A DNA stretch of 64,000 nt from Mesaphorura yosii (Eukaryota > Arthropoda > Collembola > Poduromorpha > Tullbergiidae), in NCBI GenBank assembly GCA_009869945.1, contig WIXG01000162.1:62001-126000 (forward strand), read 5' to 3'. Shown piece by piece: positions 23,013-61,226 of the stretch (positions are counted from its first letter, which is position 1; each line of letters starts with the position of its first letter). The translations under genes were made by a program, and so were the position numbers. The notes under the pieces were generated by a model. It did not search any database. It saw only the letters and a list, made by a program, of their open reading frames with translations, and had not been told where the DNA came from.

Positions 23013-24138
23013 TTACGATTGCTTAATTAAGGCCGATATTGTGCTCCTTGACAAAATGCTCCACACGAGGATGCTCACTCCTCCGTCAATTCCTGTCGGA
23101 TACGACAGCACATAGTTCATTGGGTGAAACCACTGGTTTGAGATCACGAAGACCGGATGCTTGTGTCCGAAGTAAAACAGTGTACAAATGTAAATTAGTG
23201 CCTGAAATACAAAAGCATGCATCAGTTCACTTTTACTAAGGATAATTGTCTCAAATACAAATTCATTATGCCCTTACCACAACTGCGTAGGAGCCGTAGG
23301 TACAGATTTTTAACAGGTTCTGCTGGACAGCTCGCCTTGCTCCAACTGCAATATAAAAATGAAAATCCTATCAAACTAAAAGAGGCTTAAAATGCTCACA
23401 ACCGTTAAACAGATTCTGCTGAAAGCTTTAAACCCGAGACAATTTCAGGTCCATTGAAACCTAACTTGAACTAACTTCTTAAATGTTATGAACAACCATT
23501 TCGATTGTTTTAAATTCACAATGGACTTTTACCTAAAAAATTAACTTAAAACAATCCTTAAAACAATTCAACTGTCCAAATGTCAAACGTTTCTTGATTC
23601 TATCTTTCCGACATGATCGCTACTTAACATTTGAAACAAGAAAACAAACGGCATCTTCAGAGTGAAAGAAATGGGGAATGTTCCGAGTTTCGAGTACTAA
23701 TTTTACTGATGCTGAATGTCAAATATTCCTTCATTACCATCAGATTCCAAAGACAAAGTGAACTGGTTCAGCTTCCTTTTTAACTTTGAGTACTTCGCAA
23801 AGTCGTCCACCATTGAAAGCGTGGCCATCTCATCCTTAATCGCTGTGATTTCTTTCTGTAGACTTATCTCACGTCTAGTTGGGCCGTTGAATTGATTGCA
23901 TACCTGCGCAAAATGCAAACGTACAAGGGTACGTCGTGAAATTTAATTCGGCAATTTCTTATCTAGTATTGCTTGTCTGAACTGAACTCACCTTCTCAAT
24001 TATACCCGGCAGCAAGTTGCTGATAAGGAAGAGAATTGGAATGAAGAAGACCAGAAAATAGTCCACGTTGGAGACGAATACTCGAGGTGGGCTTGGGCTT
24101 GCGAGAGGTACTGAAGCAGATCTCGGTGGCGAGTCCAT
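23013..24138 (-). CDS. GET1: GET1/WRB, guided-entry receptor for tail-anchored proteins
   Basis: Four minus-strand exons, 24138-23992, 23903-23738, 23345-23278 and 23201-23013, join in phase with GT-AG introns to give 189 residues (human 174). With its partner CAMLG/GET2, GET1 forms the ER membrane receptor that takes tail-anchored proteins from GET3/TRC40 and inserts them. The layout fits: a membrane segment at about 24-43, a charged cytosolic coiled coil at about 60-100 with DDFAKYSKLKRKLNQ (the family's M-x-D-[ED]-F-A-[RK]-Y signature), and two more membrane segments at about 125-140 and 165-183 around NQWFHPMNYVLSYPTG. The N-terminus before the first membrane segment is Pro/Ser-rich. An in-frame ATG at 24174 would add 12 residues; I chose 24138 because the family begins close to its first membrane segment. 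GAS8 lies about 0.5 kb upstream on the same strand. Confidence 0.93.
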
Positions 24139-24537
24139 ATTGTATTCCTTTCCAGGGAATCGTTCACGCCTCACAATTCTAACTGCCGTCTACAGCTTGG
24201 CTACTGAATCAATGATTAACTAATTCACTAGCTTGCAACATACAATTGCCCATAACCTTTCTTTGTGTTGTAAAATGTGTACATTTCTTTCAATTTTACC
24301 GGCGTCCAGTTTTTTATGTTGCTCTCAGTTTCTCCTCAGTAAGGTTGAGGTTTTTAAATAGAAGACAAATGGACTCCGATTCCGAGTGCAGTCAAACCAT
24401 TTACAGTCACTAAACCACTCGACATCGACTTGTCACTGAATTTATTCCTAACGAATCTGATTTTTCACATTACGGCTACTCGGCCTCAATAAAAATTGCT
24501 CTGGCCCTGTAATAACTCTCTAAATGACAGACATTTC
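24139..24537. other. spacer between GET1 and GAS8
   Basis: A short intergenic stretch expected to hold the GET1 promoter and 5' leader and the end of the GAS8 3' untranslated region. No further gene is seen. Confidence 0.6.
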
Positions 24538-24543
24538 TTTATT
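24538..24543 (-). terminator. polyadenylation signal, GAS8
   Basis: AATAAA on the minus strand, about 133 bases beyond the GAS8 stop codon. Confidence 0.6.
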
Positions 24544-24675
24544 GAAAACTATATCAAAACTCAAAACCATGTCGAAGAGAATTTCGTATACGCTCATGTG
24601 CTAAATGTTTCAAATTTTTGATTAGCTGATTTATTTAATAAATTGGGAATGAAGGACTTGGAGTTTAACCACTGT

Positions 24676-26262
24676 TCACTCCTGATTTTCGCACACTTCC
24701 GCTGCAGAGCTTTCTTCTTGGCATGACACGGATCTAATCTGTTCGGTCGCAGAACATATTTCGCTGATTTGTGCCAGTGATTCGACCTGATTCTTCGAAA
24801 ACTGAACCCATTGAGCCGCATTCTGCATCTTCTGCTTTTCTTGAAGTAAATCGAGAGCTTCTGGTCCTGTCGCACTCATCTTCGCCTTGACACATTTGTT
24901 TTCGTCTTTCAGGGCGTTCATCTTCATCTCCATCACAAGTCGTTGCATGGAAGCCTTCCTTTGCACTTCCAGCAATTCTTTCACGAATTCCTGCTTGTAA
25001 ACGTTATTTTCCTCCTTCATGAGTCCCATTCGTTCATTGAGAGCTTCGTGTGAGCATTCAACCATTCGTGCGTATCGTCGATTGCTTTCCACCTGTGGAG
25101 AAATTGCCCGACAGTTATCGCACGTAAAGATTGCGCTGCGCTTAGCTGTGGCTTTGAATGTGTTATACCTGAGCGTTAACTTTCTGAAGTTCTTTGTGCA
25201 CTTCCTTCATGTCGATCTGCTCCGAACTCCATTCAGCTATTTGTCTCTCCATTTCTTTGATTGGACCAAGAAGGGCATAGTATTTGTCTTTGGCTTCTTT
25301 AAGCTCTCTCTTCGATCGCTGCTCCTCAATCTTCTTTTTGACAATGTCCTGCTGCAGGCTCGTGATGACAGCAAAGTTGTTCACTGCCAGGTCGTTGAAG
25401 TACGTCTTCGTTTCGAGAATTTGTTTCTCGTGCGCAGCCATCATTTGTGTAAGTTGGTCTTCCTTCAGCTGAACAAGCTTGGACATCTCCCTTTTAGCTT
25501 CAAACTCTAAGGTTTCACGCTCACGCTCCAATTGACGGTCCATGTTCATTTCGATGCGGCGTATCTCAAACGCGAACTGCTTTCTCATGTCAGAAGTTTT
25601 CTCTGCCTGCTCCATGTGCATTCGACGAAGGAGCTCGAATAGGCTCACTTGCGAGTTGCGAAGTTCTTTCTTCTTAGCGGTCAGGCTCTCTTTCATGAGC
25701 AGCTGAAGCGCCCAAACTTCGCCTTGAACCTTTCTCATCTTTTCCAAGTGGTTCAGGCGTACAAGCCCCAGCTTCTTTGACTGCTCTGCTTGCAGAAATC
25801 GTAGCTTTTGCTTGTACAGATCCATTTCCGATTTCTGCTCTTTCTTATTCTATTTGCATGAAAAACGATCATGTACTTAATGTTTAGCCTTCATTTGGAT
25901 TGAATTGAGTTAGTAGTTGAATGGGCACCTGCTCCATTTGGACATCAATCAATCTGGCTTTTTGTTTCTCTTCGGCGAGTTGCTCAACCGCCAAGTTCCA
26001 GAGCGTGAACAGCTTCTCGCGTTCCAACATGAAGAAGTTGCGTTCCTCTCTCTCACGATCAATTTCAGTCTGCAATCATTGAATTACGCAATACAGTCAA
26101 CGAATCAGTCGTATCGGTGCGATTGCTGCCGACATACTGTACCTGGAGCCGTTTAATGTGTCCCAGGAGTTGTGCCGGAGACATTTCATTAGGAGAGAGG
26201 CCATCAACAATTTGGGACGCTTTTTTGCGTCCTCCCTTCCCTTTCTTCTTCTTCGGTGGCAT
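24676..26262 (-). CDS. GAS8: GAS8/DRC4, dynein regulatory complex subunit 4
   Basis: Four minus-strand exons, 26262-26143, 26069-25929, 25849-25169 and 25092-24676, give 452 residues (human 478). GAS8 is a coiled-coil core subunit of the nexin-dynein regulatory complex of motile 9+2 axonemes, where it ties the complex to microtubule doublets and coordinates dynein. A lysine-rich start (MPPKKKKGKGGRKK) leads into IVDGLSPNEMS and then EIDREREERNFFMLEREK, close to the vertebrate N-terminus. The rest is near-continuous heptad-type coiled coil, including a K-T-Y-F-N-D-L-A-V-N-N segment matching the conserved I-K-N-Y-Y-N-D-I-T-L-N-N stretch. Only the far C-terminus diverges. Exon 3 is taken to start at 25849, at the TAG that keeps phase 0. 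Plus-strand open frames over this gene are shadows. Confidence 0.95.
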
Positions 26263-27769: not shown

Positions 27770-30700
27770 TTATGCGTCCTTCGAAACAGGGGATTGGCTC
27801 TTTGCCGTGTGATATTGCGGGGATGTCTTGTTCAGAAGAGAGTTCCTCAAAATTTCCCCAGTTGGGCTTGGCGGTGGAGGCGGATTCAAATGGTGATGCT
27901 GGTATGGGCTGCTTGTTGGAGGCGACGTCCTGTGCATTTGCGATGGAGAACGGTTTGGGCTGACATGTTGCGCTTGCGCAATCGGACGAAACTGGGCTCC
28001 CTGCTGAACTCGAGACATGCTGAATTGAATTGCAGCATTCAAATCGGCCGCCGTTCTCGTGGTCAAAAATCGTGGATCCTGCCCCATCGGGTACATTTGT
28101 GGATGCCTGCCATATGAAGCGCTGGGTCCACTGAATGAAGCTGAATGTTTTCGAAATTGTCCGTGTTCTTCCACCTGCCCAACAGCTGGCTGCTGCTGAA
28201 GATGAGATTCGAAGAAATCCCTTTGTCCAAGGCAAGGATTTGACCGGCGACGATTCGCGTCGTGGAAGAATTCATTTGCGACTCCGGAGTGCGCAATCAC
28301 AGACAGATGGTCTATTGGGCTCGGCTGCTGCTGGCCCTTTTGCGCTCGTGGTGATCCTTGCTTCGGTGGTCTGCCCGGAGATGCTTTTGGGATTGACTGC
28401 GCCATGTTCATGTTTGTTCCACTCTGATTCGGAGAGTGGGAACTTCCCGTTGGCGAAGTGGTGGTCACGGCGCCTGAAGCAGCAATGCCAGTACACTTTC
28501 GGAAATGCGTCTTCATATTGGACGACTGACTGAAGCACGCTTTGCATTTTTCGCATTGGTATGGCTTGATTCCTGCGTGGTGGTTCATATGTGTCTTCAG
28601 ATGGTGGTTCTTGGAGAATGTTTTGGAGCACTCCTGGCATTTGTATGGCCTTTCCCCAGAGTGAAGTCTCTGCAAAAATCAGAACAAATTTAAATCAACA
28701 GAATAGTTTTTACTATGAGGAAGAGTAAATACGAATTACATCAACTGACACGTTATTGTCTGAGGTCCCGGTTGGGTTCACTGAACGCAGTCAGCAGAAC
28801 TTCAAAAACGAAAGCAATGTTATTATTTTTCGAATACGCGTTTTACGCATGCCCTACATTTGATTTGAAGATTGCTGTTTCGTAAGCATCGCGGGAACGT
28901 GACCTGCCTCAATTTTAACAATAACGCATTTCGCATTAAATGTGCGGTAGTAAATAAAGTTCATCGTTAATGTTCTCATTCGTATTTATGCACCTTGAGT
29001 TCACGTATTTGAAATCAGGTTCTTCGAGTTTCAACCTTATTTCAAAATGTGTTTTTCTTACCTTATGAAGAAGCATGTTGCTGCGATCCGCGAAGCATTT
29101 ATTGCAAACATCGCATTGATACGGGCGTTCTGTGGGTTCACAAAGAACAAGATCATTAGTTTCATTAGCCACAAATGGTATGCGCACGGATTCCACACTT
29201 ACGCAAGTTAAAATCTACTCGTGCCATGTGTGTTCATTTTCATTGAGACTTACCTCCAGTGTGTGTTCTCAAATGCTGTCTCAAAAGCATCTTTCGGCTG
29301 AAACTCTTCGGGCACAAAGTGCACTGATGTGGTTTCAAGCCGGTGTGAATCCGAATGTGCATGTTGTAAGCAACTCTTTGATTAAAACTCTTGGGACACC
29401 ACTCGCAGTGGTACTCCTTTGCGTTGCGGTGGATTTTCAAATGGCTGCTGAGGTAGCCCTTGTCATTGAAATGTTTACCTGGAAGCGTATGCAGCGATGA
29501 CATTAATTTATGCTAAAAGCCAGCAGTGTACTGGCAAGTGGCATTGAAAGACTTACCGCAAACAGGACAAGTACATGCGAAGGTCTCTGTCCCTTCGTGC
29601 TTCGAACGATGATAACGAAAGTTTCTCAGCTGTGAAAATTCCTTTGGGCAATCCGGACATTTGAGCTTCTTCTTTTCTGGCTTCTCCAGCCGGCTGGAAA
29701 CGATCGGTTCGGAGAAGCGCCTGTCCTGCCTGAAGAGCACCGAACCATTAAGACCTTGATGTGCCGAAATTGCCAGTCCTCGAAGTCCGCCTGAGAGCAG
29801 CGGCGGAAGAGACTCGATGCTGGATGTGCTCTTGCGTCGTTCGTCAAAGTAGGACAATGACGGGACTAATGAATCAGAACTTGAAAGTGTCAGGTTGCGA
29901 ACTTTCTCCAATGCGTCCCTCGTCTCCTCAATAATGCACAAGTTGAGTGGGCGAACAATGTCGCTTGCTTCGTCTGACAGGTCTGCGGGCTCCTGCTTTA
30001 CGGCGGCGTGGAACAGTGAATGGATTCTTGTGTCTCCGAGTGAGGAACGCCTCACCTCGGAGGTCAACGGTGCGTCGGGATCGTCGCTGGGTTCTGACAT
30101 TTTCCTCTCGCGGATAATTTTGCGTTTCTTTCCTATATTTTTGAAACATCTCATCAATAATCATTCACCACCGTAAGCCGTCCGTTTACGTACCACATGG
30201 CCCGAGGAAAAGAAATGAGCCGGGGTCGTTATTCTCAATGATCTTTACGGAGGCGTCCGACTCTCGTCTCTCCCGGTTGACATCGCCAGACTCCGGGCTA
30301 GAAACGTAGGCTCCCAGTTCATCGTGACTTTGACAATGATTCTCATCGCTCAAGCTACTGATGGATTCGCGACGGTTTGTAAACTGCGGCTGCTGTTGTC
30401 GCTCCACAATAGCAGATGCCTGTGAGATGCGAGAAAGAAGCCGTTAGGAAAATTGAAAAATTGCATTGAAACCGAAGTAAAATACGCGAAATATGTCGGG
30501 ATTGTTCATGCGATTCAGGTGTATAGGTATGGATAATGGATGAGTGGGTCATCGTTTCGGCCAGAGTACGTAAATATCGAACCAGATTCTTTCAATGACA
30601 TCCACATTTACGTGAAGTTGGTGTAGGTTAAGAACGACCCACATTTATATCGAGAAATGGCAAGCTTTAGCTTTGCGTAAAGATAAGTGTCTGGTCATTA

Positions 30701-33663
30701 AATGAAACGAAAAACAGTTTCAAGGCTACTGTACAAATGCCACTGCTGATTATGTCATTATCTTTGTCCGGACGTGCAGAAACACCGCAACCAACCCAAC
30801 CAAGCTCGAAAGTCTTAAGCTATATACCTGTGCTAAGCTGGACAGTGGCGAAGGCAAGTTAGGAATGGAATGCCTCTTTTGCGTGGAGTAAAGATGCGAC
30901 TCAGGAGCAAAGTCAGAGGAATCAAGCGTCGAGTAAAGATTGTGGACATCGTCCTCCGGGTAATTGCCAACCTGCTCGACAGTTTCCCCGATCGGGTCAG
31001 GCCCCTGTTTCGAAGCTATCTTCAGTTTCGCCAACTCCGCAATCGTGGCGGTTGCTCCGAATGAATGTCTGCGATTCGTGTGGTCCTGCTCAGGCGACCT
31101 GCTTCTCCCAAACTCCGAGTCCATCTCCGGATGGCGGAACTCAGGCGTTTGCATTCGACTGATGTAGGTGGTCGACGAGCTGGCGTAGTTCGTTGCATCA
31201 ATGAGAAGGAGCGGAGGGGAGACGGAGGGCGAAGGGGACGAAGTGCGTTGGCGGAAAGGATCAAAGTGATCGACACTGCTGCTTCGCCGACTGAAGTTGA
31301 CGCTGCTGCTGGTTGTTGTGCTAGCACTGCAAGTGCTGCCGCGACGATAAATGTTGCTCAGCTCAGGTTCGAGCAGAAAGTCAAAGTCTGCATCGTCTAG
31401 AAGAGCGGAAATCGGCACAATCTGAATCGGTTCGCACTGGACTGGTTGCTTCGTAAACAGCAGATCAAGGCTGTTTTCGCCGCTGCTGTTGTTACCGCTC
31501 ATGTTGGTCTTTGTGTAGTCGTTGTACATGGAACGATGATAGCTCTCCATGTTTGATGACGACCCCGACCCAGAATTGCTTCGACTTTCCACAGAACTCG
31601 ACGTGTTGTATCCATTGTTGGCCATTGTCATTACCGGCGTCATGTAGTAATTGTTCGCCTCCGGTGCGGGAGGTGAGGAACTTGATCCACTGCCGTTGCT
31701 CTCGTTGCTCAGTGCGTAGTATGCGTCGATTGTTCCCATCAGGTCCTTTTCAGTGGTTACGTCACGATTTTGATGCGGGTGCTGATACTGATTGTGATTG
31801 TTGTAGTCGTATGCGGTGGCCGCTGTCGTCACCGGTGGCGATCCAGGCATCGAACCAAGACTGAAGTCTTGTCGCATCGTCGTTGCGTGGTAATTCCAAT
31901 AGTCATGATTGTTCTGATGCTGTTGAGCAGCTGTGTTGTAAATTTGCATGGGCATATTATTCAGATTGTGGATGTCCTGCGAAACAGAAATTCAGGGAAT
32001 TAGTCACACACGCACACACGTACGACGTATTTGATCTCAGGGCAGGCCAGAATCAACAGAATACAGAAAATTTTTCAATTCACAGCAATTCGCAATCAGT
32101 CTTTGCTTTATGCTACCGTTGTGCTTGACCTTCTCTGATGTCATCATGTCGGCTTCGCTATCAAACATCAACTGTAATTCGAGGTACAAGTTCAAACTTT
32201 GCTTCGCTTTGATGAATCGCAATGGCTGGTTTCTTAAACGTACATGTACGAAAACTTTACTTGGTAATTATGAGCAATCTAGCTCGAGTTCGAATCGTGC
32301 CCTTGTCAAGTTCAAGCTAACGCCGCAGTTATACCAAAGTTCAACATTGCACTGGCTTAGCTCAATCTCACATTGCAATCATTTAACTTCACAGCATTGA
32401 CATGACATTTGGAAAAAACACTGCAGGTCGTGTCTGGCGAATGGCGATCGTGTAGCAATTTTGCACACGAGTGTAAAGCCCAACGAATAATTTAGATAAA
32501 CAAATCCCCGCGATCCGCTGCCCTGCCTGGAATTACATCGGAGCATCCGTGTGCAATGCACTTTTTCATTTATTGTCAGGCTGTCCTGACGCTGTTGCTG
32601 TGTTAAAATTATCTTGGTAAGGAATTAGCGTGCTCCCACGCCTTTCAAAGTTATGAAACCAGGTACGAGAGAGATCCTCTGAAGTAGAAGCTCAATGCCT
32701 GAAATCTGCCGGCGCTAGCGTTCCAGGTTCCAGCGCAGAAGCATCGTATCAACTTGCCCCCGACGCGTTGTAACACTGGAAAATTTTCCTGCTTGCGAAA
32801 ATGAAAGCATGGAAATTTCCAAGGCTAGAACCGGCAAGCACTACGCTCTGCGCTTGCAACTCGCTGGAAACTTGCTTTTGTTCGTACCATCCTGCAGCTA
32901 TTTCTGAGAACTGAGAATCTATGAAACTGGAATCGCGTAAACCGTAAACAGGTTTCGTACTCTACAGCGTTTCACTTTCGCTGTAGAAATTATGGGAGAG
33001 GAGCCGGAGCAGAATGAATGAGTGTCAATGGGTTGGCGCTCGGTGCCTGCTGCCTTCCTGCGAAGGAGAAAGTTTCAGAAAAATTCGTACCACTTCCGAA
33101 ACTGTGTGCGGGATGAAAGCTGACGTTTGCGTGAGTTTCAAGCTTCTTTCCTCTTCCAGAGAATTAGCTACTAGCCACGGCTACGACTCATAAGCGCCTC
33201 GAAACGCTTTTACACTTCTCGCAGCAGAGCCCGGTGCCAATATGAACTTTGGAGCTTTCGCTGTCGGTTCGCCTGTACCAAAACCGCTTTCACTCATTAA
33301 GCAGCCAGTAGGGAGAGCGGTGAATGAAGGCTTGACATTTTGAATGGCATTGCTTGCACTCGGAAATTACGTGGGATTTCGGTTCGCGCAAAAATGAAAT
33401 CTCTCCAGTTACTTCAGGATATAATTATTAATTAATGTTAATTTGCCCGCCCACTACCAATTTATGCACTGAAAGAACCCCATAAACAATTTGCTGCTGG
33501 TGCCGTACGTACGTAGTTCGCACGTACGTTGACAGACGTACGTGCGAAATTCATTACGAAGTCCAGAAATAAAATGATAGTTGCTTACCCTCTGTTGGTA
33601 CTGCTGCAGTGCATCCATGGGGAAAGGTCTGAATGCAGGGTTCGGGTTGAGAGTGCAATGCAT
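27770..33663 (-). CDS. seven-finger C2H2 transcription factor with an RRxS-rich N-terminal half
   Basis: Seven minus-strand exons, 33663-33589, 31976-30828, 30419-30194, 30132-29557, 29478-29254, 29129-29062 and 28669-27770, join in phase to 1072 residues. Residues 1 to about 630 are disordered and Ser/Asn-rich, with a basic cluster (GKKRKIIRERK, a likely nuclear localisation signal) across an exon junction. Seven C2H2-type fingers occupy about 639-830, with Krueppel-type linkers (HTG, HSGERPY). Several exon junctions fall inside fingers, and the last finger is C2HC (H-F-R-K-C). A Ser/Pro/His-rich tail follows. It should bind DNA in the nucleus. I cannot name an orthologue, though the block CPVCGKHFNDKGYLSSHLKIH looks deeply conserved. 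Nine R/K-R-x-S motifs are spread through the N-terminal half, two of them with proline at +2, as in 14-3-3 sites. The ATG at 33663 is the first in exon 1. Intron 1 is 1.6 kb. Confidence 0.88.
31977..33588 (-). other. intron 1 of the seven-finger transcription factor gene
   Basis: A 1.6 kb intron, the only long one in this gene. The donor (AGG then GTAAGC) and the acceptor (TTTCGCAG) are good. Apart from the hairpin at 33517-33548, about 40 bases inside the donor, I see no coding or RNA gene. Its length and position suit an enhancer-bearing first intron, but that is inference. Confidence 0.7.
33517..33548. repeat. perfect inverted repeat, 13-bp arms, in a first intron
   Basis: TTCGCACGTACGT (33517-33529) and its exact reverse complement ACGTACGTGCGAA (33536-33548) flank TGACAG. 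A further CGTACGTACG run lies at 33504-33513, so the neighbourhood is full of ACGT words. On the minus-strand transcript the hairpin would form about 40 bases after the exon 1 splice donor. Confidence 0.85.
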
Positions 33664-34236
33664 GCCTTGGCCTTATTCGTTCCAGTTTAAGAGCGTGTAC
33701 ATGAAATGTATTCCATCTTTTCCTCGTAGCGGACCAAAATATTCTCTTTCCTCAGCACTGAAGTTACTGAACACCGTATTTCATCTAAATTCACTATTTG
33801 CGATTTGTATTTCACAGTTCATAAAAGTCGCAGATTACAGTCACGTTTGCTTTCAAGTTCAAGCGTCGCAACTTCACGAGCACAACAATTTTGGAAGAGG
33901 TTCAGGTACAGCTGTCTCAACTTGTCGCGAGTTACATGGTCCTTGACCGTGACACTGAAATTCGTCCACTTGATCAAAGTCAATTTCTGTCTAGAACGAA
34001 GCGACGAGGACGAGCTATCGATACGTACGCGAACAGGAACGGAGTTGAAATGATGGTCGAAACTTTTGCTTGCACCGCTTATGAAATGAAATGAAGGTTG
34101 AGGTTGTTGAGAAAGGCTCTATTCAGCTGCTGTTGTATCATGTAGACCGTAGAATGTGTTTTTGAATGCTCTCTCGTTTTTTGCAAATAGCGAATGCGAA
34201 TTACGTATACTGGCTCTACGTTTCCACTACGACCAC

Positions 34237-46992: not shown

Positions 46993-47010
46993 GCGATAGA
47001 AGCATAAACA

Positions 47011-50000: not shown

Positions 50001-53000
50001 ATAAATTGTTTCCAGAAAATTGTTCCAAGAGAATTGTTTCCAGTGCGTATCGGTAATATTTCTGTTGAGATTTACGGAGCCTCACGTTACCCCAGGCTAG
50101 TTATTTAAATGTTCTAATGTTCTATAAATAAGCACATTGAAGATGTGCTAATAGGATGACAGTCTTTCCAAATCTGCTGGGTCCAACTTTGGGCTTAGGT
50201 ACGTTAGTGTACTAAAAACAGAATTAAGATATCTTCTGAGCACTACTCTGCGCTGATGTAAAAGAACCCTTGACGCCTCGGATCTGGTCTTGTTCTTGGT
50301 AATGAAAGTAATGATTGGAATGTAAGGACTTAAAAGTGAATTTGCAAATATATGCCCGGAAGAGCTCTCCAGTTTCCAGTTAACGTTTCTTGCTTTGACC
50401 TCGTAGGTCTCTGTCATGTCTGTAATCTGATGCCAGAGATCACTCAGGTTCAGACACTTCAAAGGAAAATTCAAATTTAGTTTCATGCCATTTCAATTGT
50501 AGCACTAAAGATTTCGCCAATTACAGGCTGAAGGCTTCGAACAAATCATACGCATGTAATTATCGTTCAATGTTTAAGCAGTAAAGGGGCCTAAGATCTC
50601 ATCGTTGCTTCGTTTCGTTGTTCCCTTTATCCCATCCATACCATACAAATAGTACACAGATGTACACGGAGTTGGAACCTCCTTTGTCTGGCTTCTCCGT
50701 CTCATGTGTCATGTCGTTCACGTCGACGTTTCCACAGGCGAATTCGCATCGCAAATTCGCAATCCTCAAAATGCAGACGCAGACGGTCACACGGCACAGC
50801 TTTTAATGTTCCCGTCTCTCTTCACCGCCTGCCCATAATTTTATTATTGCGTTTTTCAGTCTACACACTCTTCATTCAGCATATGAGGCAGGATCGCATT
50901 TGGTATTTGGTTGTTTTACGACTTCTTTTAGAAATGAAAAGGGTTCGCAAAGCATTCAACAAAAACCATTGATGTTGTGCAAATATCTTCCTCCGCACAC
51001 TCACTCACATTCTCAGATCGGTTCGCCTGCCTGAGTCTACTGTGACCATGCCCGCGGAATGTGAGGCCAGGGCCATTTCTTATTTTAGGGACCACACATC
51101 GTGTGCATTTAGTTCAATCGTTGGTTCAGTTAAAATGTGTGATGACGAGTATGTAAAAATAAAATAAAGCCTTCGTCATCTCATCTCAGGCCAGGCTTCC
51201 TTTTTCTTCGTCGCAACATCGTGTCGTGTCGTTTTGGAAGGCATATTTTGTGGAAATGAAGCCTTAGCTGTTTGAATGCGATCGAATATCGCCTGTATTA
51301 TGTAAAATTTTATGCGTTGTACTTAAATTTAATGTGCATGCCTGTTTTCCTGTCCCACTTCTTCATGCCGATTAGGTCCACGATAATTCGATCATGATTT
51401 ATGCAGTCTGGGTTGACACTAGTAGCATAAACAGTACGAGAGAACTAATAGCGATAATGACAAACCAAAAGAAACTACTTCGTAAGCCCAAATGCTGATT
51501 TCTGATCTTTGTTTCTGAGCTTTTTTACCATTGCCTTCCCTTACATGTACAAAAATAAGTTCATGTCACGAATGCTTTGTTTGGAGCGTGGCTGCAGCTT
51601 TAGCGTCTTTTTCATTTCGAAGGGGAGAGATTACTAAGTCAAATGCTCCAAGACGCATCTTTTGTTCGTAGCATTTGGGAATCTGAATTTATCCCATTGC
51701 CCCTTCACATCTTCGCCTTATTCGTGTATCTGTGTAACGCATTAGTTCAAGTTAGACTTGTATTTCCAGAAATGAAAAATTATTCGAGTATTGCTCTAGT
51801 TTAAGATTAAGACAGAAACCCGTCAAGGCTGTAGCGAGCCTCGTGCATTGTGCAGTCAAGAGTCAAACGGTTGCGAGCATAATAGAGCATCAGAGTTAAT
51901 TTCGTCCAATCTCATGGAAGAAGTGAAGACTTTAAAAGTTTTCAGTGTAGATAAGTTTTAATAACTTGGATTTGATCTAACGCTGTTAGGTTTTAAAAAG
52001 AAAGTCCTTCAAGAAGTCCTTCCAGCAGCGTCTCACTTTCGAGGTTTCGACGCACAACTGACGAGTGGGAACTCTACTCCAAAGAGATGGACAAAAGCAT
52101 AAGTTGTCATGGTTTTATTGTGCGCCATGTACGCCTCTGTCTCTTAGCAGAGCACGAGCAAGACCACCTTTTGCAGCCCTCCTCTTCCATTTTCAAGGCA
52201 TTCTAAGTGCAGTTGGTGTTATTTACATGTAGACTTTTGCAGATCTTTCTGAGGACTCATTAAACCATAAAAGTGATTTGTGTTATTTGCGTGATTGGAT
52301 TGGACGGTGAGTAAAGTAAATAATTCGTTCCTTTTAGGCAATCCGTGTTCCGAAAATTTTGAGAGGAGAGACGCTCACATACACAGCCCATAAAAGAGCT
52401 TGCCAAATCACACGCTTTGACTCGTAGTCGTAGCTGCCATTTTTCATCATCCGACGCTTGTCAAGGGAAACGAGAAGGTGTAGGAGAAAGAGACGAGCCT
52501 CCTCAGCGCATCATTCGCATTATTACTTTCCAGTTGCAAATAGGACGCGAAAGAAAGTTCGTGACCGCAGCCGACGCCTTGTCCGCGTATTGTGTCGATT
52601 GTCTCGAATTACACCAACGGCCGCATATTGCGTTTCATTTGAGGTTCGCTTTCGCTCGCAAAAAATCGAATTAATTTCTCCTGCGTTCGATTTCCCTTTC
52701 TCTGATCTTGCTCGTGCGTTTCAGAAACGCGCTTTTAAAATAACTTAAATCACATTAACTTGGTGGCAGTAGGAGGGATATTAATCGAGTAACGCATTTG
52801 CGTAGTTGTTGACAAATAGCGCAAATACCAAATGGAGGATGTAAACCAATAAATTTTAATTAATTTCTACGCCAGTCACACAAGTAAACCAACAAAATGA
52901 GTTCTCAACGAAGTCGCCGGTCTCCTCGGAAGTCTCAATCACAACGAAGTCAGTCAAGTCAGCGAACTCAGCAAGACTCTGATTCTGGATTTGTGGACCC

Positions 53001-56000
53001 TGCACTTCAAACTGGTCGTACCATGAAGAAAGTTTGCAAAGAAAACTTCCTTGAGGCTTGGAAATATTGCCAGACTGGTAAACCCATTTTAAATACTTCT
53101 TATTTACGTCGGCATCGGGTAGCTGCGCTAAACGGCCGAATAATGCTGTGAATGGACAAAGGCGTCAATTACACCTATCATTCGCAAGGAGAAAACAGCA
53201 GCTTGAAACTAATTATTTTATAGATGATGAACGGCAAGCATTGAGAGTGCAGACAGAAGTAGTCATGCTGAAATTAGTCCGAAGCGAGCTCATGCTAACG
53301 GATCCAATGCTGATATTGGAGGACATGGGATTAAATGAACCTGCAGAAGACGACACTTCTGCTATTGATGCCGAATTGGATTCTTTCGAAAAGGCAAGCT
53401 TATTATGCTAATGTTCTATACTAGAAGATTTGGAGATTAATTAATTTAAAAGAGATCTCACTTCACGAAGGCCGTTGACGATAGACGCGAAAAGTTCATA
53501 AAAGGGTTGACACCCAGCAAGATGAAGAAGCATCAGGATTACGTGCAGATGTTGAACATAATCAACAAAAAATGCGAAGGTATGCCTGAAATACTTTCTC
53601 TATCGAGTCTTTTAGCCTGAACGCATGAACCGGAAAACGAATTGACTTTTCTTTTTATAGAGCTTGAACCTCATGCAACTACCAGCACAGGCTGCGGAGC
53701 AGTTGAAGGCGATGATACTTTGGAGATTTTAGAAGACGATGATGGCAATGTTAAAGAGTTGATTCCAATAAAAGATCCGATCTCCAAGAAAACGTTGGTG
53801 GACCCAGTTAGAAACAGTAAATGCTTGCATGTGTACGGAAAGGCTCAGATAACATCGCTTCTCTTGAAGAACAGGCAGATAAGGTAATCAACCAACACAA
53901 TCTGCCCCGCATTTCAACGATGCAGACCAACCAACTTTCACTATTCAATTTCACCCTCTGCCTTGTTTCTAATCAGATGCCCTCAAATGGGTTGCCCCAA
54001 TCGGGCGTTCATTAGAATTCAAGACCTGGTCGACGATCCTGAGTTGAAGGAGAAGGTTAGGCTGAAGGTAGCTGAGGTCCAGCGCAGAGAAGCGGAGGTA
54101 GAAAAAACCAGGAAGGAGAAAGGCAACAGTACAAATGATATGGAATAAGCATGATCCCTTTGTCGTCCGTGAATTATGATTTTGCGGCAAGTGGTATGAA
54201 TTCTAGAATTTATTAGGCTGTTTCTTTCCCGGCAGCGTTTCATTGGATAAGTAAGAAAATAAATTGAATTTCACTTACATCCGATGAGGATAGCCAATGT
54301 GAACGTGGTAATTGTGTCAACGGCATTCGCGAAGTCTGCCACTCCAACTCCAGTATTTGCTCCGAGTGTGTCCACAGAAATTTTAAATAAGTATGGCACG
54401 AAGACGTTGAGTATCTTGCCACAAGCCAGGAGGCCCAGGGCGAGCACTACGCGTTTGCGTATGTCCCAATTATCCTATAATTTGGGATTAGAATAGAAAT
54501 AGAAAAGGCACATTCCTGCTTAATTAAATAATGACGACGAATGTGGAGGTACTTACTTTAGGCCAAATATATTTAAGCATAGCTTTGAACACTTTGCTTG
54601 CTGAGACTTCGGATGAACTGCTTTTAAGTCCATTGCGTGCGAGGTTGGAAACTCCAGGATGGAAGCAAAGTCTGATTGGTTGAAATACTCGACCCTTTCA
54701 CAAATATAAGAATATGTTTCAAATTAGCTTTACACTGAACTAGAAACTAAATATCTTCGAGGTTTGCTTCGATTTCATAGTTTTTCATGAACACAATGCA
54801 ATGTTTCAAGTACTCCAAGGCCAGTCCACAAGCTTGATTCTTTTCGCACGAAAGTGTTTGTAAGTTAAAAATAGATTCTTCATACGATCGAATTTCCACT
54901 CTAATCAATTCCCGAACAATTTTCTTAAATGATGAACTGTTGGTCGTAATCTGGAAGTCAAATGCTTTGATCTGTTCTGGATTCCACAAAACTAGTTGTA
55001 CCAGTAAGCTTAAGTTCCAAGAAAGGTCATTTTGAAGAATGTGCAGCTCAGTTCGTAAATTGTGCTTTTTAATTATATTCATTTTTCTCAAGTCTTTAGA
55101 CAAAGGTAGCAGTTGTGGATTTCTAGTAACAAGGTCTGTGAAGTCTAAGGGCACAAAATCAAATGGATTTGCTGTGCCAGGTGGTGGAATAAAACCGTAT
55201 TCTGTCCATAGTTTGAAGTGTGGGTGGTTTCCGTAGCTGATGAATATTTCTTCGCCTGTATGAATCTCTCTGTTTGACTTAATCGTGTATGCTCTGTGCT
55301 CTTCGCTGAATGACACCTTTGTATTGGGCACAGGTGAGTGGTTAAATAAGTCAAGAAATGGTGCCAGCGCCATTCCACCTTCACTTTCCAGGAATACAGA
55401 CCGTGTGTTCACTACAAACCAGCAGTATTTAAATGATTCAAAATTACAAACTTCATCTTTTGCTTTTCTTGTGCTTGTGCGTGTGTCTTTGGCGTAAAAG
55501 AAAGCGAATGCTGATTGGATGGCTTTCATTTGCTTGTCGATCATAGTTTTGTAGATTGTTGGCAATAGTTGAAGCTCTTGCTCACTTAAGTAGGCTGGAA
55601 GTTCACGAAAGCTCGACGGTAATGTTTTGATGTACTCAAAGATTGGGGAATCTTTCCCTTTGCCGATTTCTTCGTAAAGATACAGTGCGTACTTATCATG
55701 GAGGGTAATTTCGTCGCGAATGCTTTGAATTTCTTCAGGAGAGTACCTGGATGCAGTTATTAAGCACAGCTCATGTAATTCAAGCAGTTTCTCTTCGGAA
55801 CTTATGGTATTCTTTCTCCTACTTGATGAAGCCATGATTCCTCGATAACGGACTTCGTCATTATTTACAGCAGCCAGAAAAACTGCAGGAGTTACTCGAG
55901 GACTCTTAACGAAAAGCTGTCCGCTTGGTCCAGGCTCGAACGTGTGAGATTTTCTTTTAAGCCATTTTAGTAAAGCAATCATATCTGAATCCGCTTCGAG

Positions 56001-56836
56001 TTGTTGAATGGTCCCTGATTGTTGTAAGCTCCTGCGGGAGCGAATTCTTTGCGTCCTTCCCATTTTGTACTTTTGTTAATTCGCCCACATTTGGTCCCTC
56101 TCCAACAACTTTTAGCTTCTCTTAGGCTCCGCTTCTGTCTCAAATGCGAATTTGGAATTACATCTTCTATCACCTTTGCTTTGGGTTGACGCGACGGATG
56201 TTGTATACATGGATGGATGGATGCAAGTCTACTTCTATACAGCACAGCACCAGTCAATGATTTGATCACTCGATAGTAAATGTCTAAAATAATGAGAAAA
56301 GTTCTGTTCAGTGAACATCCCTAGTGCACTTAAAATCATGGCATTATTGTAGAAATCATTCAATTTAAATTGAATTTGGCTTGGAGAAATTGATTTGCTT
56401 TGCGATTGGTGTGGTTTGATTGGCACTGGCTTGACTTGGTCTCTATTTGATCATCTCATTCTGGTTACACTAAATAGTAAAGGTACATGAGAAAACTAAC
56501 CTGCAATATTTTTAAATTCCTGTTCAAGTACGAAAAACTTCGATTTCCAAGCCCATTTCGAGTTGGAGGCACAGCATTTCTTATCGACGGTGATAGATAG
56601 AAGGATCTGAAACTACTAGTGTTGATTTTACTACACAGCCTACATCCTAATTGACTAGTGGCACTGCTTAAGGGTTTCCTGCATATATTTTGGTGCAAAC
56701 TACACGAAGATTTTGGTAAAGTTAGTCTCACTAAATTAACATGAAGGCTACACGAGTACTTTCGTGAGAATATGGGTGAACTCTTGCGACCGGTACTATT
56801 AAGAGCTGAGCTTAAGGAAAGCATCAGCATCCTCAT
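47011..56836 (-). CDS. ABCB7: ABCB7/Atm1-type mitochondrial ABC half-transporter
   Basis: Eleven minus-strand exons, 56836-56501, 54694-54557, 54474-54279, 49756-49590, 48831-48730, 48634-48283, 48216-48059, 47997-47831, 47767-47638, 47569-47294 and 47211-47011, join in phase to 740 residues (human 752). ABCB7 sits in the inner mitochondrial membrane and exports a glutathione-linked sulfur compound used in cytosolic Fe-S assembly. Exon 1 encodes 112 residues with no Asp or Glu and many Arg and Ser, as expected for a mitochondrial presequence. Exon 2 has no in-frame start upstream and needs such an exon. The membrane domain has SRQTGALSK and [14 protein letters not shown]. The ATPase has Walker A GGSGSGKST (split by intron 8), LSGGEKQR at about 638, Walker B ILVFDEA at about 658 and the switch His near 694. 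It ends soon after the H-loop, without the Cys-bearing tail of human ABCB7. Introns 1 and 3 host SETD4 and NSMCE2. Confidence 0.93.
49988..50043. repeat. degenerate tandem repeat built on TTGTTTCCAG
   Basis: Four successive variants of TTGTT(T)CCA(A/G) occur at roughly 14-18 base spacing. A related cluster (TAAATTGTTTCCAGAT and AATTGTTTGTGG) lies at about 41161-41235. Confidence 0.6.
50124..50153 (-). repeat. dispersed 30-base repeat, copy 2 (inverted)
   Basis: Reverse complement of 46529-46558 with one mismatch. It lies inside ABCB7 intron 3, so the two copies flank the downstream exons of ABCB7. Confidence 0.8.
52897..54148 (+). CDS. NSMCE2: NSMCE2/MMS21, SP-RING SUMO E3 ligase of the SMC5/6 complex
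   Basis: Five plus-strand exons, 52897-53077, 53224-53393, 53453-53579, 53661-53883 and 53977-54148, give 290 residues (human 247). NSMCE2 binds the SMC5 arm and attaches SUMO to repair and cohesion proteins. After a Ser/Arg/Gln-rich start and a helical N-terminal half comes the SP-RING at about 190-255. Its zinc ligands are present: Cys and His in KCLHVYG, and the two Cys of CPQMGC. The motif that usually opens the domain, C-P-I-T, reads D-P-I-S here; that Cys is not a zinc ligand in this family. A charged KR/E-rich tail ends the protein. Intron 2 begins with GC (AAG then GCAAGC) instead of GT, the only reading that keeps the frame. The whole gene lies in ABCB7 intron 3 on the opposite strand. 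Confidence 0.88.
54258..54263 (+). terminator. polyadenylation signal, NSMCE2
   Basis: A plus-strand AATAAA lies 110 bases after the NSMCE2 stop and 15 bases before ABCB7 exon 3 (54279-54474, minus strand). Cleavage 10-30 bases downstream would put the NSMCE2 3' end at, or just inside, an ABCB7 coding exon. Confidence 0.6.
54747..56063 (-). CDS. SETD4: SETD4-like SET-domain lysine methyltransferase, intronless
   Basis: A single uninterrupted minus-strand frame of 438 residues (human SETD4 about 440). SETD4 is a lysine methyltransferase of the SETD3/SETD4/RuBisCO-methyltransferase type, linked to histone methylation and cell quiescence. The N-terminus [12 protein letters not shown] matches the human GRTSRIRRRK start. 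The SET domain has CLITAS, then [10 protein letters not shown], the SAM-binding [13 protein letters not shown] with the NHS motif, [10 protein letters not shown] with the catalytic-region Tyr, and EYGFI. A Rubisco-substrate-binding-like helical region follows. Vertebrate SETD4 genes have several introns, so the intronless state suggests retrocopying or intron loss, but no frameshift or stop is present. It lies in ABCB7 intron 1 on the same strand, and its stop is only 52 bases before ABCB7 exon 2. Confidence 0.88.
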   Translation of the reverse strand: MGRTQRIRSRRSLQQSGTIQQLEADSDMIALLKWLKRKSHTFEPGPSGQLFVKSPRVTPAVFLAAVNNDEVRYRGIMASSSRRKNTISSEEKLLELHELCLITASRYSPEEIQSIRDEITLHDKYALYLYEEIGKGKDSPIFEYIKTLPSSFRELPAYLSEQELQLLPTIYKTMIDKQMKAIQSAFAFFYAKDTRTSTRKAKDEVCNFESFKYCWFVVNTRSVFLESEGGMALAPFLDLFNHSPVPNTKVSFSEEHRAYTIKSNREIHTGEEIFISYGNHPHFKLWTEYGFIPPPGTANPFDFVPLDFTDLVTRNPQLLPLSKDLRKMNIIKKHNLRTELHILQNDLSWNLSLLVQLVLWNPEQIKAFDFQITTNSSSFKKIVRELIRVEIRSYEESIFNLQTLSCEKNQACGLALEYLKHCIVFMKNYEIEANLEDI

Positions 56837-57353
56837 GCTTTACATTTCCTAAAGTGGCTAGCGCACTATGTAAAAAGTATAACAGAACAATCTCGGAAAG
56901 CTCAACTGATCACGATTAAGATGATCTTCAAGTGTTCATGTCTTTAAAACTGGTGCCACGTACTCCAGACACGAAGCACGTGAAACAGAACAACAAAAAC
57001 AGATGTGAGTTGTGTCTCCTTGCCCTTGTTTGTTTCATTCATTTGTGCTTGTGGAATTACACCGGAAGCAGCTCAGACCTAACACTTGCACTTTCTTTCT
57101 ACGTCTCTACGCACGGCAGTCTTCGACCGTGGTTACGTGGTCTCGACAAGTCCAGAAATCAGACGGCAGGTACGGTGACGGATAGCTGGTACGGATAACC
57201 TATTGTGTATTTCGTATATTCTTCGTTGCCAGAAATTATGGTTCCGGTATCACAGTTGACGCCGGCGAGTGACAGAGCGAACCAAGCCTGGGAGAATGGT
57301 GAGTAAACTCGCTGAATGCAGGCACAATTGACACTTCTGTCAACTAATAGCAC
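56837..57353. promoter_or_regulatory. head-to-head promoter region between ABCB7 and UPRT
   Basis: The two start codons face away from each other across 517 bases, so this must contain both promoters and leaders. Near UPRT a GGTGAGT donor (gt at 57299) and a TAATAG acceptor (ending at 57350) suggest a 52-base leader intron. An upstream ATG at 57237 would read out of frame with UPRT after that splice. No coding gene is seen inside. Confidence 0.6.
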
Positions 57354-58683
57354 ATGGCCGAAATTGACATGATTTTGACAGAAATAGCACCAGCATCATC
57401 TCGATCCAGCAGCCCCACGTCAATGCCATCGTCCGCCAACGACGTTGTCTGCGAAAACGGACCAATACCATTTCGTGAGCGGAGTACAAGTGGTGGAAGC
57501 TGTAATTATCCGATCTCGGAGAGTAATCCAAACAGCCCGTTGCCAACCGATGGCTTTGGCATGATTGCTCCCGCGAACCTTATCACCTACCAGATGAGAG
57601 AAAATGAATTTGGAAGCAGCTTTAAGATTTTGAGAATAACTGACCAAGTCAAAGAGCTGCAAACAGTCATTCGGGATAGGTGAGAGAATTTTAAAAGGCA
57701 CAAGTTAAACAAAAGCAACGCTGTTCGTATTGTTTCATGCCCAAAAGGAATACTCCAAGGAACAAGTTCAAATTCTCTGCGGATCGTTTGGTTAGTTACT
57801 TAATTTGAATGCGAGCCGACCACGCGAGTCGCTTTGATATACGATCACAAAGTTCTGAGTCTGAAAAAAGTCTGACGCATTTCTAGATTCGCTTGGTGAT
57901 CGAGGAAACTCTTGACGAATTGCCGTTCACGGATTGCGACGTTGTAACTCCAACAGGAGCCACATATCATGTAATGCTTGATTCTTAATTTCTCACAATC
58001 CATGCATGCACTTCGATTCTAGATGTTTTTGCAATTTGAAGGGACTCAAATTCATGAAAGGTAATTGCGGAGTATCCATTGTCAGAAGTGGGGAAGCAAT
58101 GGAGCAAGGTTAGTATTTAGATAACCCTAGCACAACCCGAATCGTTGAAAGTTTTAACTAAAGCATGATGTTCAACTTCAGGCCTCCGAGACTGCTGTCG
58201 TTCGATAAGAATCGGGAAAATTTTGGTGGAGCGGAACTCTGAGAACGAAACGCGTGTTGTTTACGCACGGTTTCCTGAAGACATTTCCAATCGGAAAGTC
58301 GTTCTCATGTATCCAATCATGTCGTCCGGGAATACCACTGTGAAAGCTGTCAATGTGCTTAAGGAGCATCAAGTCTTGGAGGATAATATTCTTCTCGCCA
58401 ACTTATTTTGCACACCGCATGCTGTTCGTTCTGTGCTGCAAAATTTTCCGAATGTAAGCAAGGCTGACGTTGATTAATTAATTTTGTCTCTGTTTTGTGT
58501 GTGTTCATTGCTACTTGTATCTATGCATTTTGCAGATGAAAATTGTGACTTCCGAAGTTCATCCGGTAAAGTAAAACTTAATCTTTGGTTTTATACAACT
58601 TTGTATTATTCAATGCTATTCAAATGTCTTATGTGTAGATCGCTCCAAACCATTTTGGAACTCGGTACTTTGGCACTGACTAG
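57354..58683 (+). CDS. UPRT: UPRT, uracil phosphoribosyltransferase homologue
   Basis: Seven plus-strand exons, 57354-57679, 57748-57790, 57887-57970, 58042-58108, 58182-58453, 58536-58565 and 58639-58683, give 288 residues (human 309). Exons of 43, 30 and 45 bases are strikingly small, but every junction keeps phase. The family converts uracil and PRPP to UMP in pyrimidine salvage. The first about 75 residues are a Ser/Pro-rich leader. Then come [42 protein letters not shown] and YPIMSSGNTTVKAV, the PRPP-binding region, ending VHPIAPNHFGTRYFGTD as in other animal UPRT proteins. The bacterial PRPP motif D-P-M-L-A-T-G-G is replaced by Y-P-I-M-S-S-G-N, as in animals generally, so uracil activity cannot be assumed. 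It is head-to-head with ABCB7. Confidence 0.95.
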
Positions 58684-59835
58684 TCAGATCTGAAATCTCC
58701 ACCAAATTGCACAGTATGACTATATACACTCTGAGCTTTTCATGAAAGAGCTGCGAAGTAAAAAAAAAGTAAACGGTGGAATTGATACAAGTAAAGACTG
58801 GAGAAAATTCGTGTTCCTTGCGTTCAAGTCACAACAAAATAAATTACATTCGCAATTCTTTGCATACTTTATGATTCAAGACTGTTTTGACTCTTTTCAC
58901 GAACTTATGGCTTCTGAGTACAATGTGCTATTTCATTATTGAATTGAATTTAAATGTGCCTGTCCTTTTCAGAATTGAAGAATGCTTCAAGTTCTTGAAA
59001 TATTTTATTGTTTTATTACACACTTAATGGGACTTATTAAACTTAAGCTGTATGGACGTTACAACATTTGGTGTTAATAGAGCTTGGGAGAGACCTCTCA
59101 TCTGAAATCTCATGCCGATACCAAATTCAAAGTCCTAACAATCACTCGCTACTAATTAAGAACTTTGTTATTGTTATTTGCTATTGCGGTAATAAAATTG
59201 CTGAATGATTTCACAATCTTGTGCTCGTGCAATTGTAAGTGCCTTTATGCATTTCTAGCCAACTATACTTTGCATTGCACTGGAAAGAATAAATAAAACG
59301 AATAATTTTTCGATGCACTTAACAGGCAGTATTTTGCATTGCTCGAAAACGAACTTACAGTAAAAATGTGTTTGTTGCATTATCAACTTAATAATACACA
59401 GTGAAGAGCGACCTCACTATACCGTCAGACTTCTGACATGACATGACTGGGAATATCATCAATTAAAGTAAAAGGTACCAATTAAATCGCCAATTCAGTG
59501 ACAGTAATTTGCAAGGAACTTGTGAGCAAGGCAATGGGCGAGAATAAGTTCAATTGACGAATAAGCTATGCAACATTTCCGGGTTTCTGTTCTAGGCTAC
59601 TCATTTCTTTTGCTATTTTTGCAATCTTAGCCATAATATAGATAATTCAAGTTTGTACGAAAGTTCCTTACATAATTCTTAGACTTGATTAACGACTTGG
59701 ATTTTAGATAAATGAGGTCGGCGTAACTTATTCAAACAAAGCAGATTTCATGCGGAAATTTTGTTTTCTTGATTCAATCTTGTTGCAATTCATGATCTTT
59801 GCTCCGTAGACGTGGAACAACCTTCGCGAACTCAA
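58684..59835. other. convergent spacer between UPRT and SH3BGR
   Basis: A spacer of 1.15 kb between two genes that end towards each other. It holds the UPRT 3' untranslated region (AATAAA at 58838-58843) and that of SH3BGR. A short frame at 58742-58942 has no recognisable content. No other gene is seen. Confidence 0.65.
58838..58843 (+). terminator. polyadenylation signal, UPRT
   Basis: Plus-strand AATAAA about 155 bases after the UPRT stop. Confidence 0.5.
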
Positions 59836-61212
59836 TTAATCTTCTTGGGAGAGCTCATCCTCGATTCCATCGTCCACCTCCTCATCTCCAGCGGCAGCAG
59901 CAGGAATTTCTTCATTGTGCGGTGCTTCTTCTTGTGGTGTGGTGGTTGTACTCGAAATTTCCCCTTCGTTGGTTCTTGCTCCTTCAACTTCAGTGATATT
60001 TTTCTCGTCGAAACCGCCATCATCATCAATGTCAACTGCGGGGTTGACAGCTGCAGCCGCTTCCGCAGCCACAGGAGCAGGTGCTGGTGTTGTGGACTCA
60101 ACAACTGCTGGTGCTGGAGATTGTTCTTTTGCACCTTCTGATGAAGTGACCTTTTTACTTTCAGCTTCTGCAGAACTCTCTCTCGAGTTCTTTCCATTTG
60201 ATACAGCTCCGTTATTGACCGATGTTTGTGTCGAAAACTTCCTTTCCACCTTCGGGACGTTCAGAAATTCTTCCAGGACGTCATTCTCGTTGGCCAAGTC
60301 AAAGTCCTCATAATCCTGTAAAGAGAAAAATATTGGTCTTAACTGAAGTCTGTAAATTATGACGTTAATTCTTTGAGCATCGACTGTAGATTAGTCTTGC
60401 TCATCGGCCTGGGCATACAAGTAACAATGAAGAATGGAAACACAAGGGTGCTCCTTGCACATCCTGCCTATTCCATCAACATTTCAAGCAATGTAAACAT
60501 CCAAATTCGCACATTATATCTTTGCTCAAGTAATTTTTATTTTAGCAAGAATGACTGCTTAGCCTTGACACCACTCTTCTTATTACACTGCTGCTGAAAC
60601 TCAATGAGGAAGACTCACCAAATAATATTTGCGTGCATGTCACGTAATAATAATTAATAACTTTATGACCCATATTGCAGCTTGAGCTTGCACATTATTA
60701 GCAGCACGTGAAACAATGTGTTCGTGATGATGCATCTTCATTCTTCAAAACCGTACGTGTGCAATTAAATTGCTGAACATTCTACTAAGCACGAATTCTC
60801 CAGAAATATTTGAATTGCCACATGAGTGGTGAGTAGTACTTAACCACTGAACGCAATACTTACCCCGCAATACACTTCTCCATTAAAGATTTGTGGACTA
60901 AAAATTTTCTTCGTATCACCGCGAGGTTTTGCATTGTTGAGCATGAATTCTTTGTCGCCTTCCTTTCCAGGTTCTGTAATATCAATCGCTTCGTACGGGA
61001 TCACTTTCGAATCCAGTATCATCATGACTCTTTGTTGTCGCTTTTTCATCTAGATTAGATAACCACATGATTGGCATTGGCAGTTAGCATATGATGTCAT
61101 ATCCTTGATAAATGCATTTATCCTTCATGAGTTTTATACTCGGATTACAAGTTAACCTTACCTCCTTGCTCGCAGAGATTTCTGCGTAATACACTTTCAC
61201 GCCCATCGTCAT
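59836..61212 (-). CDS. SH3BGR: SH3BGR, SH3-domain-binding glutamic-acid-rich protein
   Basis: Three minus-strand exons, 61212-61162, 61049-60864 and 60315-59836, give 238 residues. The first about 100 residues form the SH3BGR thioredoxin/glutaredoxin-like fold: GVKVYYAEIS as the first strand, KKRQQRVMMILDSKVIPYEAIDI, and the conserved SPQIFNGEVYCGDYEDF around the cis-proline loop. There is no CxxC redox centre, as in the family, so it is not an oxidoreductase. The C-terminal about 135 residues are low in complexity, first Ser/Lys, then Ala/Pro, then acidic, like the Glu-rich tail of vertebrate SH3BGR and fly Sh3beta. The exact cellular role of the family is unclear. ATG at 61212 is used because it opens the fold; a second Met follows two codons later. 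A 548-base intron separates exons 2 and 3. Confidence 0.92.
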
Positions 61213-61226
61213 TTTGCTGGATCAAA

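Follow-up and report, generated by a model that had tools for sequence, protein, structure and literature searches.

Genes with human Xq13 and 21q22 counterparts on one contig of the springtail Mesaphorura yosii: a possible scrambled remnant of ancestral bilaterian linkage

The window analyzed here, a stretch of 64,000 nt, forms part of a 168-kb contig (C162), one of the 1,127 contigs in the genome of the springtail Mesaphorura yosii. A PRDM-type gene, encoding a PR domain and C2H2 fingers, occupies 2172..8794 on the minus strand (Pfam PRDM2_PR, E = 2.9e-26, supported by PDB matches), and was modeled by the gene finder as four exons separated by introns 74-80 bp long. The same strand carries GET1 (WRB), a tail-anchored protein insertase subunit, at about 23013..24189 (Pfam CHD5, 2.6e-10; ends by eye), for which GET1/WRB chains were the best PDB matches (4e-07 to 8e-06). 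It is followed, also on the minus strand, by DRC4/GAS8, dynein regulatory complex subunit 4, at 24680..25825 (Pfam GAS, 9.4e-10; DRC4 chains in the PDB, 4.8e-14), by a C2H2 zinc-finger gene modeled at 27770..32168 (zf-C2H2 matches at 29,243-29,512) and by ABCB7, the mitochondrial iron-sulfur ABC exporter, at about 47014..50100 (Pfam ABC_tran and ABC_membrane, with PDB matches). The 5' end of ABCB7 is uncertain and, as read by eye from open pieces, could extend to 50,492.

Between ABCB7 and SETD4 lies NSMCE2, the SMC5/6 SUMO ligase, which was absent from the initial annotation. This gene occupies about 52888..54145 on the plus strand (Pfam zf-Nse, 1.6e-09, on 53,621-53,884; ends by eye); a PDB search with it up to E = 1 gave no match. 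The SETD4-like SET methyltransferase gene, at 54747..56063 on the minus strand (Pfam SET, 3.3e-10), is a single open frame of 438 codons without an intron. UPRT, a uracil phosphoribosyltransferase homologue, follows on the plus strand at about 57351..58571 (Pfam UPRTase, 1.2e-21; PDB, 3.6e-20), with its exons set by eye; its last exon was not located, a motif search of 58,400-64,000 being empty. An SH3BGR-family gene with a glutamate-rich tail lies on the minus strand at 59836..about 61212 (Pfam SH3BGR, 5.1e-16; SH3BGRL2 and SH3BGRL chains in the PDB), and has three exons by eye versus two in the gene finder model. Finally, a Canopy gene on the minus strand, at 63255..64000 (Pfam DUF3456, 9.8e-19, on 63,255-63,554), extends past the window edge and is presumably CNPY3/4-like. 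The gene finder, home-made and trained on open frames from the same contig, merged neighbours, and gene limits were therefore read by eye from open pieces: it fused GET1 with DRC4, Canopy with a piece of SH3BGR, ABCB7 with stretches antisense to NSMCE2, and UPRT with stretches antisense to SH3BGR. A splice check of ABCB7 was uninformative, having picked frame ends instead of splice sites.

The identities of these genes differ in firmness. For ABCB7, the ABCB7 chains were best in the PDB (E = 3.4e-44, versus 6.2e-26 for ABCB6), and one exon scored 152.9 bits to ABCB7 versus 94.1 to ABCB6, which places the gene nearer to ABCB7/ATM1. UPRT chains were likewise best for UPRT, which is of the UPRT rather than the UCKL1 type, a call that relies on human motifs; the genome contains a second gene with a UPRTase domain, on contig C3. 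The SETD4-like protein matched generic SET domains in the PDB, with no SETD4 chain among its 32 matches, and the name is therefore given by resemblance to SETD4. A genome search for a second full-length SETD4 copy gave none, returning the gene itself and one partial 42% match on contig C1. The SH3BGR-family gene had one match in the whole genome search, whereas human has four family genes. Its best solved chains were SH3BGRL2 and SH3BGRL, and SH3BGR was absent among the 7 matched chains. Judged from these sequence matches, the gene is best read as a probable co-orthologue of human SH3BGR and its paralogues. A search for COX1 gave no match.

Two further correspondences to 21q22 were considered and rejected. 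The PRDM gene could not be taken as PRDM15, another 21q22 gene: its PR domain scored nearly equally with PRDM4 (62.8 bits), PRDM10 (61.1) and PRDM11 (58.7), and no PRDM15 chain occurred among its 13 PDB matches. Similarly, the gene next to GET1 is not LCA5L, which in human sits between GET1 and SH3BGR; both Pfam and the PDB identify it as DRC4, and the match to the lebercilin family is on contig C1.

As the initial annotation had proposed, GET1 (-), ABCB7 (-), SETD4 (-), UPRT (+) and SH3BGR (-) all lie inside 23013..61212, by Pfam and PDB matches and, for the SETD4 name, by resemblance. The adjacent, head-to-head placement of ABCB7 and UPRT was not borne out: NSMCE2 (+) and SETD4 (-) stand between them, so that the two genes are not neighbours and were rejected as a bidirectional pair. 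Judged by strand, ABCB7/NSMCE2 and SETD4/UPRT are the neighbours that stand head-to-head. About 36 kb, holding at least six genes, separates GET1 from SH3BGR.

The human linkages named in the initial annotation are found in the literature. ABCB7 and UPRT appear consecutively in an Xq13.2q13.3 gene list (PMC7549592), SETD4 maps to 21q22.12, and GET1 and SH3BGR both map to 21q22.2, where a GET1-SH3BGR readthrough locus is recorded (PMC12779367). To assign the springtail SH3BGR gene to 21q22 is to pick one of four human relatives. ABCB7 and UPRT are also side by side in gene lists of turkey chromosome 9 and the sheep X, and their linkage is therefore older than the bird-mammal split. In Drosophila, UPRT is flanked by mad2 and S6k (PMC4536494). 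NSMCE2 and TATDN1 share one table row, covering a 693-kb interval at human 8q24.13 (PMC4228273), and a TATDN1 gene, found by reading and bearing a TatD_DNase domain, is located on the same springtail contig as the five genes. None of four further families of the human blocks was found on this short contig; their homologues lie on C232 (DOP1), C211 (WASHC5), C74 and C319 (OST3/6) and C1 (LCA5). A literature search on ABCB7 with UPRT, judged by title and the start of the abstract, gave no paper on ABCB7-UPRT synteny, nor did wider searches, judged by title among the entries listed. The ancestral chromosome behind 21q22 is not stated in the relevant passages of PMC12827327, PMC5370447, PMC9974502, PMC10972751, PMC8302630 and PMC6193309.

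The contig thus holds three pairs of genes that are close together in human, namely ABCB7-UPRT, GET1-SH3BGR and NSMCE2-TATDN1. The explanation we favor, with about even confidence, is that the arrangement is a scrambled remnant of an ancestral bilaterian chromosome, maintained without functional constraint. The window would then be an ordinary arthropod stretch, in which a few genes from one early-bilaterian linkage group are still near each other, their order having been shuffled by later inversions. In vertebrates, the ancestral chromosome would have been copied in two genome duplications, leaving pieces at Xq13-q21 and 21q22, and we infer both the common descent of the linkage and the derivation of these two regions from one pre-duplication chromosome. 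Such an arrangement would need no function, and the jobs of the genes are unrelated: iron-sulfur export, insertion of tail-anchored proteins, methylation, uracil salvage and an actin-linked thioredoxin-fold protein. The occurrence of SH3BGR-family genes at 21q22, Xq21 and 6q14 in human is the pattern expected of copies of one block. Part of the original proposal of an old shared block is supported by the human linkages and the additional NSMCE2-TATDN1 pair; a tightly preserved block is not, in view of the split pairs and the fly UPRT neighbours. Against the favored reading stand also the four families whose homologues lie on other contigs, the single SH3BGR-family match where human has four genes, and the intronless SETD4, which may be a moved copy. 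According to Sacerdot 2018 (PMC6193309), moreover, the reconstructed counterpart of human X combines two duplication tetrads, and even the X side might then have mixed origins.

The arrangement recalls conserved ancestral microsyntenic pairs, in which two unrelated genes are near each other in distant animals. Such pairs are adjacent and common to several phyla, whereas here ABCB7 and UPRT are split by two genes, and the fly UPRT has other neighbours. It also resembles the bilaterian and chordate ancestral linkage groups of Simakov et al. (2020; PMC7269912), where genes of an invertebrate chromosome have their relatives gathered mainly in a few vertebrate segments, in scrambled order, and chromosome-scale linkage persists in bilaterians. 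Unlike that work, which draws on chromosome-scale genomes and thousands of families, the present case comprises one 168-kb contig of a single species and 19 placed families.

Coincidence is the strongest rival, and we give it a substantial chance, though short of even. Some 27 recognizable genes on the contig, several of them with multiple human paralogues, together with a free choice of human band, could yield apparent pairs. The choice was post hoc; the Drosophila UPRT neighbours differ, and the homologues of four other human neighbours sit on other contigs. Chance was estimated by a rough, post hoc simulation, with approximate human coordinates and chromosome gene counts and with genes spread evenly along chromosomes. 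Of the 19 families placed, 12 were given one human place and 7 more than one (SH3BGR, CNPY, TJP, TCTN, LMAN2, G3BP and PRDM), and several were named from a single exon or domain (LYST from BEACH, PSAT1 from Aminotran_5, UBE2F from a UQ_con match below its cut-off). Eight families, mostly named by eye, were left out without a human place (glutamate-synthase-like, USF3-like, DUSP-like, C2H2, SLC5-like, FBXL/LRR-like, thaumatin and CBM14).

At distances of up to 5 Mb, chance alone yielded 1.9 pairs versus 8 observed (P = 0.0026), and at up to 10 Mb it yielded 3.7 versus 12 observed (P = 0.0025). Within 1 Mb, 3 pairs were seen versus 0.40 expected (P = 0.0086, under a weak null and approximate coordinates), and the 12 single-place families gave 2 versus 0.05 (P = 0.0008). 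Observed pairs therefore exceed expectation at every distance, and the NSMCE2-TATDN1 pair was not picked by the initial annotation, which argues against coincidence. The nine families of the window gave 2 pairs within 1 Mb versus 0.08 expected, at a P of 0.0025 that is optimistic, since the coordinates are approximate, the window was chosen for its pattern and both pairs had been named beforehand. The ambiguous PRDM gene, given three human places including that of PRDM15, accounts for 3 of the 8 pairs within 5 Mb, 4 of the 12 within 10 Mb and none within 1 Mb, and 12 of the 19 families are neither in the three pairs nor SETD4. The control contig C163 (160,000 of 168,151 bases) contained few families recognizable by eye (TBC-domain, NUP50-like and teneurin-like) and was uninformative as a baseline.

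A stricter form of common descent, in which one short ancestral bilaterian block held all five genes together with NSMCE2 and TATDN1, and Xq13-q21 and 21q22 are two of its duplicated copies, seems unlikely. The two human neighbourhoods would then once have been one, with SH3BGR/SH3BGRL, BRWD1/BRWD3 and HMGN1/HMGN5 as surviving doubles.

It is very improbable that ABCB7-UPRT and NSMCE2-TATDN1 are old whereas SETD4 arrived later and the SH3BGR match to 21q22 arose by chance, so that the 21q22 part would not be a block. The SETD4 frame is intronless, versus introns in the PRDM, DRC4 and SH3BGR models, and the gene may therefore have moved; the failure of the genome search to find a second full-length SETD4 copy and the four human SH3BGR relatives point the same way. 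Introns can, however, be lost without gene movement, and the human proximity of GET1 and SH3BGR suffices for a readthrough locus. Least credible of all is functional constraint, with ABCB7-UPRT (or GET1-SH3BGR) kept together since early bilaterians by a bidirectional promoter or by a regulatory element common to both genes: ABCB7 and UPRT are close and on opposite strands here and side by side in the human, turkey and sheep lists, but two genes split them in the springtail, mad2 and S6k flank UPRT in Drosophila, about 36 kb separates GET1 from SH3BGR, and no shared function is known.

Should the scrambled ancestral linkage favored here be confirmed in outgroups, the function of each gene would be unchanged. 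It would provide a further case of linked genes that predate the protostome-deuterostome split, and human Xq13-q21 and the Down syndrome region of 21q22 would both trace back to a single ancestral segment.

The contig that carries the window (C162) comprises 168,406 bases, of which the window represents positions 62,001-126,000, in an assembly of 93 Mb in 1,127 contigs; an arthropod mark is provided by 66 matches to the RR cuticle-protein domain, while a search for COX1 was negative. Gene order was derived by combining domain scans with open pieces of all six frames and the models of a small home-made gene finder, and the gene limits were set by eye, since the finder fused several neighbouring genes. 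The genes recognised in the window are, in order, a PRDM-type gene (-), GET1 (-), DRC4/GAS8 (-), a C2H2 gene (-), ABCB7 (-), NSMCE2 (+), SETD4 (-), UPRT (+), SH3BGR (-) and Canopy (-). GET1 and DRC4/GAS8 are near each other on the same strand (window 23013-25825). No gene was recognised in window 9000-23000 and 33000-46900, and the flanking genes are compact, with measured introns of 74-80 bp. Elsewhere, C162 carries a thaumatin-family gene (L011:60-551), of a family unusual among animals, and a CBM14 match slightly below its cut-off. A further DNA piece (L001:4110-4511) resembles, by eye, a glutamate synthase N-terminus, the scanned piece giving no Pfam match.

In comparisons with solved chains, a single exon scored 152.9 bits for ABCB7 versus 94.1 bits for ABCB6, which makes the former identity clear, and for GET1, DRC4, UPRT and the SH3BGR family the top match was in each case the gene's own family. 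NSMCE2 was recognised by its zf-Nse domain, and had no match among the solved chains. SETD4 was recognised by its SET domain; the 32 solved chains it matched were all other SET proteins, and the name reflects a presumed resemblance to human SETD4. Its coding frame (window 54747-56063; 438 open codons) is intronless, possibly through retrocopying or intron loss, and apart from the gene's own locus a genome search returned a single partial match (42%), at another site, with no second full-length copy. The PRDM gene cannot be given the name PRDM15. Another UPRTase-domain gene, which we take to be probably UCKL1-like, occurs on a different contig (G000:C3:156095-157091).

All five genes of the initial annotation (ABCB7, UPRT, GET1, SETD4 and SH3BGR) were found in the window, and the range assigned to them, 23,013-61,212, agrees with the ends of GET1 and SH3BGR. 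ABCB7 and UPRT had been described as adjacent, which they are not: NSMCE2 and SETD4 intervene. GET1 and SH3BGR are separated by ~36 kb containing six recognised genes. The human linkages are borne out by published papers: ABCB7 and UPRT are consecutive among the genes listed for Xq13.2q13.3 (PMC7549592), as well as in the lists for turkey chromosome 9 and sheep X (PMC8470100, PMC9126029); SETD4 is located at 21q22.12, and GET1, SH3BGR and a GET1-SH3BGR readthrough locus at 21q22.2 (PMC12779367).

A further pair was absent from the initial list. A TatD-family gene (TatD_DNase), presumably TATDN1, lies beyond the eastern edge of the window by about 2.5-3.5 kb, at about 128.5-129.5 kb of C162 (L008:2978-4031) and some 12 kb from NSMCE2. 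Human TATDN1 and NSMCE2 lie within one 693 kb interval at 8q24.13 (PMC4228273), which brings to three the pairs on C162 with closely spaced human counterparts.

The role of chance was simulated for 19 families of C162, each given its approximate human place or places, with random places drawn 20,000 times (40,000 for subsets); at least 8 further families were excluded, as no human place could be assigned. By these approximate coordinates, 3 pairs were seen within 1 Mb (0.40 expected, P 0.0086), 8 within 5 Mb (1.9 expected, P 0.0026) and 12 within 10 Mb (3.7 expected, P 0.0025), the ambiguous PRDM gene being involved in 3 of the pairs within 5 Mb and in 4 of those within 10 Mb. The 12 single-place families, on the same approximate basis, gave 2 pairs within 1 Mb (0.05 expected, P 0.0008), 3 within 5 Mb (0.27 expected, P 0.0053) and 3 within 10 Mb (0.53 expected, P 0.022). 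The window was, moreover, picked for its pattern, and a null model of random placement is too weak, because bilaterians are known to retain linkage at the scale of whole chromosomes (PMC7269912); the figures indicate only that unstructured chance is strained. In control contig C163 (160,000 of its 168,151 bases), the families that could be recognised were too few to serve as a baseline.

We consider the chances that the linkage on C162 is ancestral to be evenly balanced; coincidence is a tenable, if somewhat doubtful, reading. Several observations speak against a preserved block. The Drosophila UPRT homologue, kri, is flanked by mad2 and S6k (PMC4536494). Of four families whose human members neighbour these genes (DOP1, WASHC5, OST3/6 and LCA5), none was found on C162, their homologues being on other contigs, a result weakened by the shortness of the contigs. 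The SH3BGR family had one match in the genome, versus four human genes (SH3BGR, SH3BGRL, SH3BGRL2 and SH3BGRL3; PMC8356473), so that the 21q22 label is a choice. According to Sacerdot 2018 (PMC6193309), the chromosome reconstructed as the homologue of human X brings together two duplication tetrads, and the X side may therefore be of mixed origin.

Under ancestral linkage, the likeliest reading, the genes would once have shared one ancestral chromosome, remaining within one contig here and in a few segments in human, and their order would have been scrambled since. SH3BGRL is located in the same part of Xq as ABCB7 and UPRT, at no great distance from them, and human SH3BGR adjoins GET1 on 21q22; further family sets are BRWD1/BRWD3/PHIP and HMGN1/HMGN5/HMGN3. 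Together, these suggest that a single segment was copied in the vertebrate genome duplications to give Xq13-q21, 21q22.2 and 6q14; no text confirming this was found in the portions of the literature available. If they are such copies, the two human neighbourhoods of the initial annotation would be united. Old linkage of this sort is of an already known kind, and C162 would be at most one more instance.
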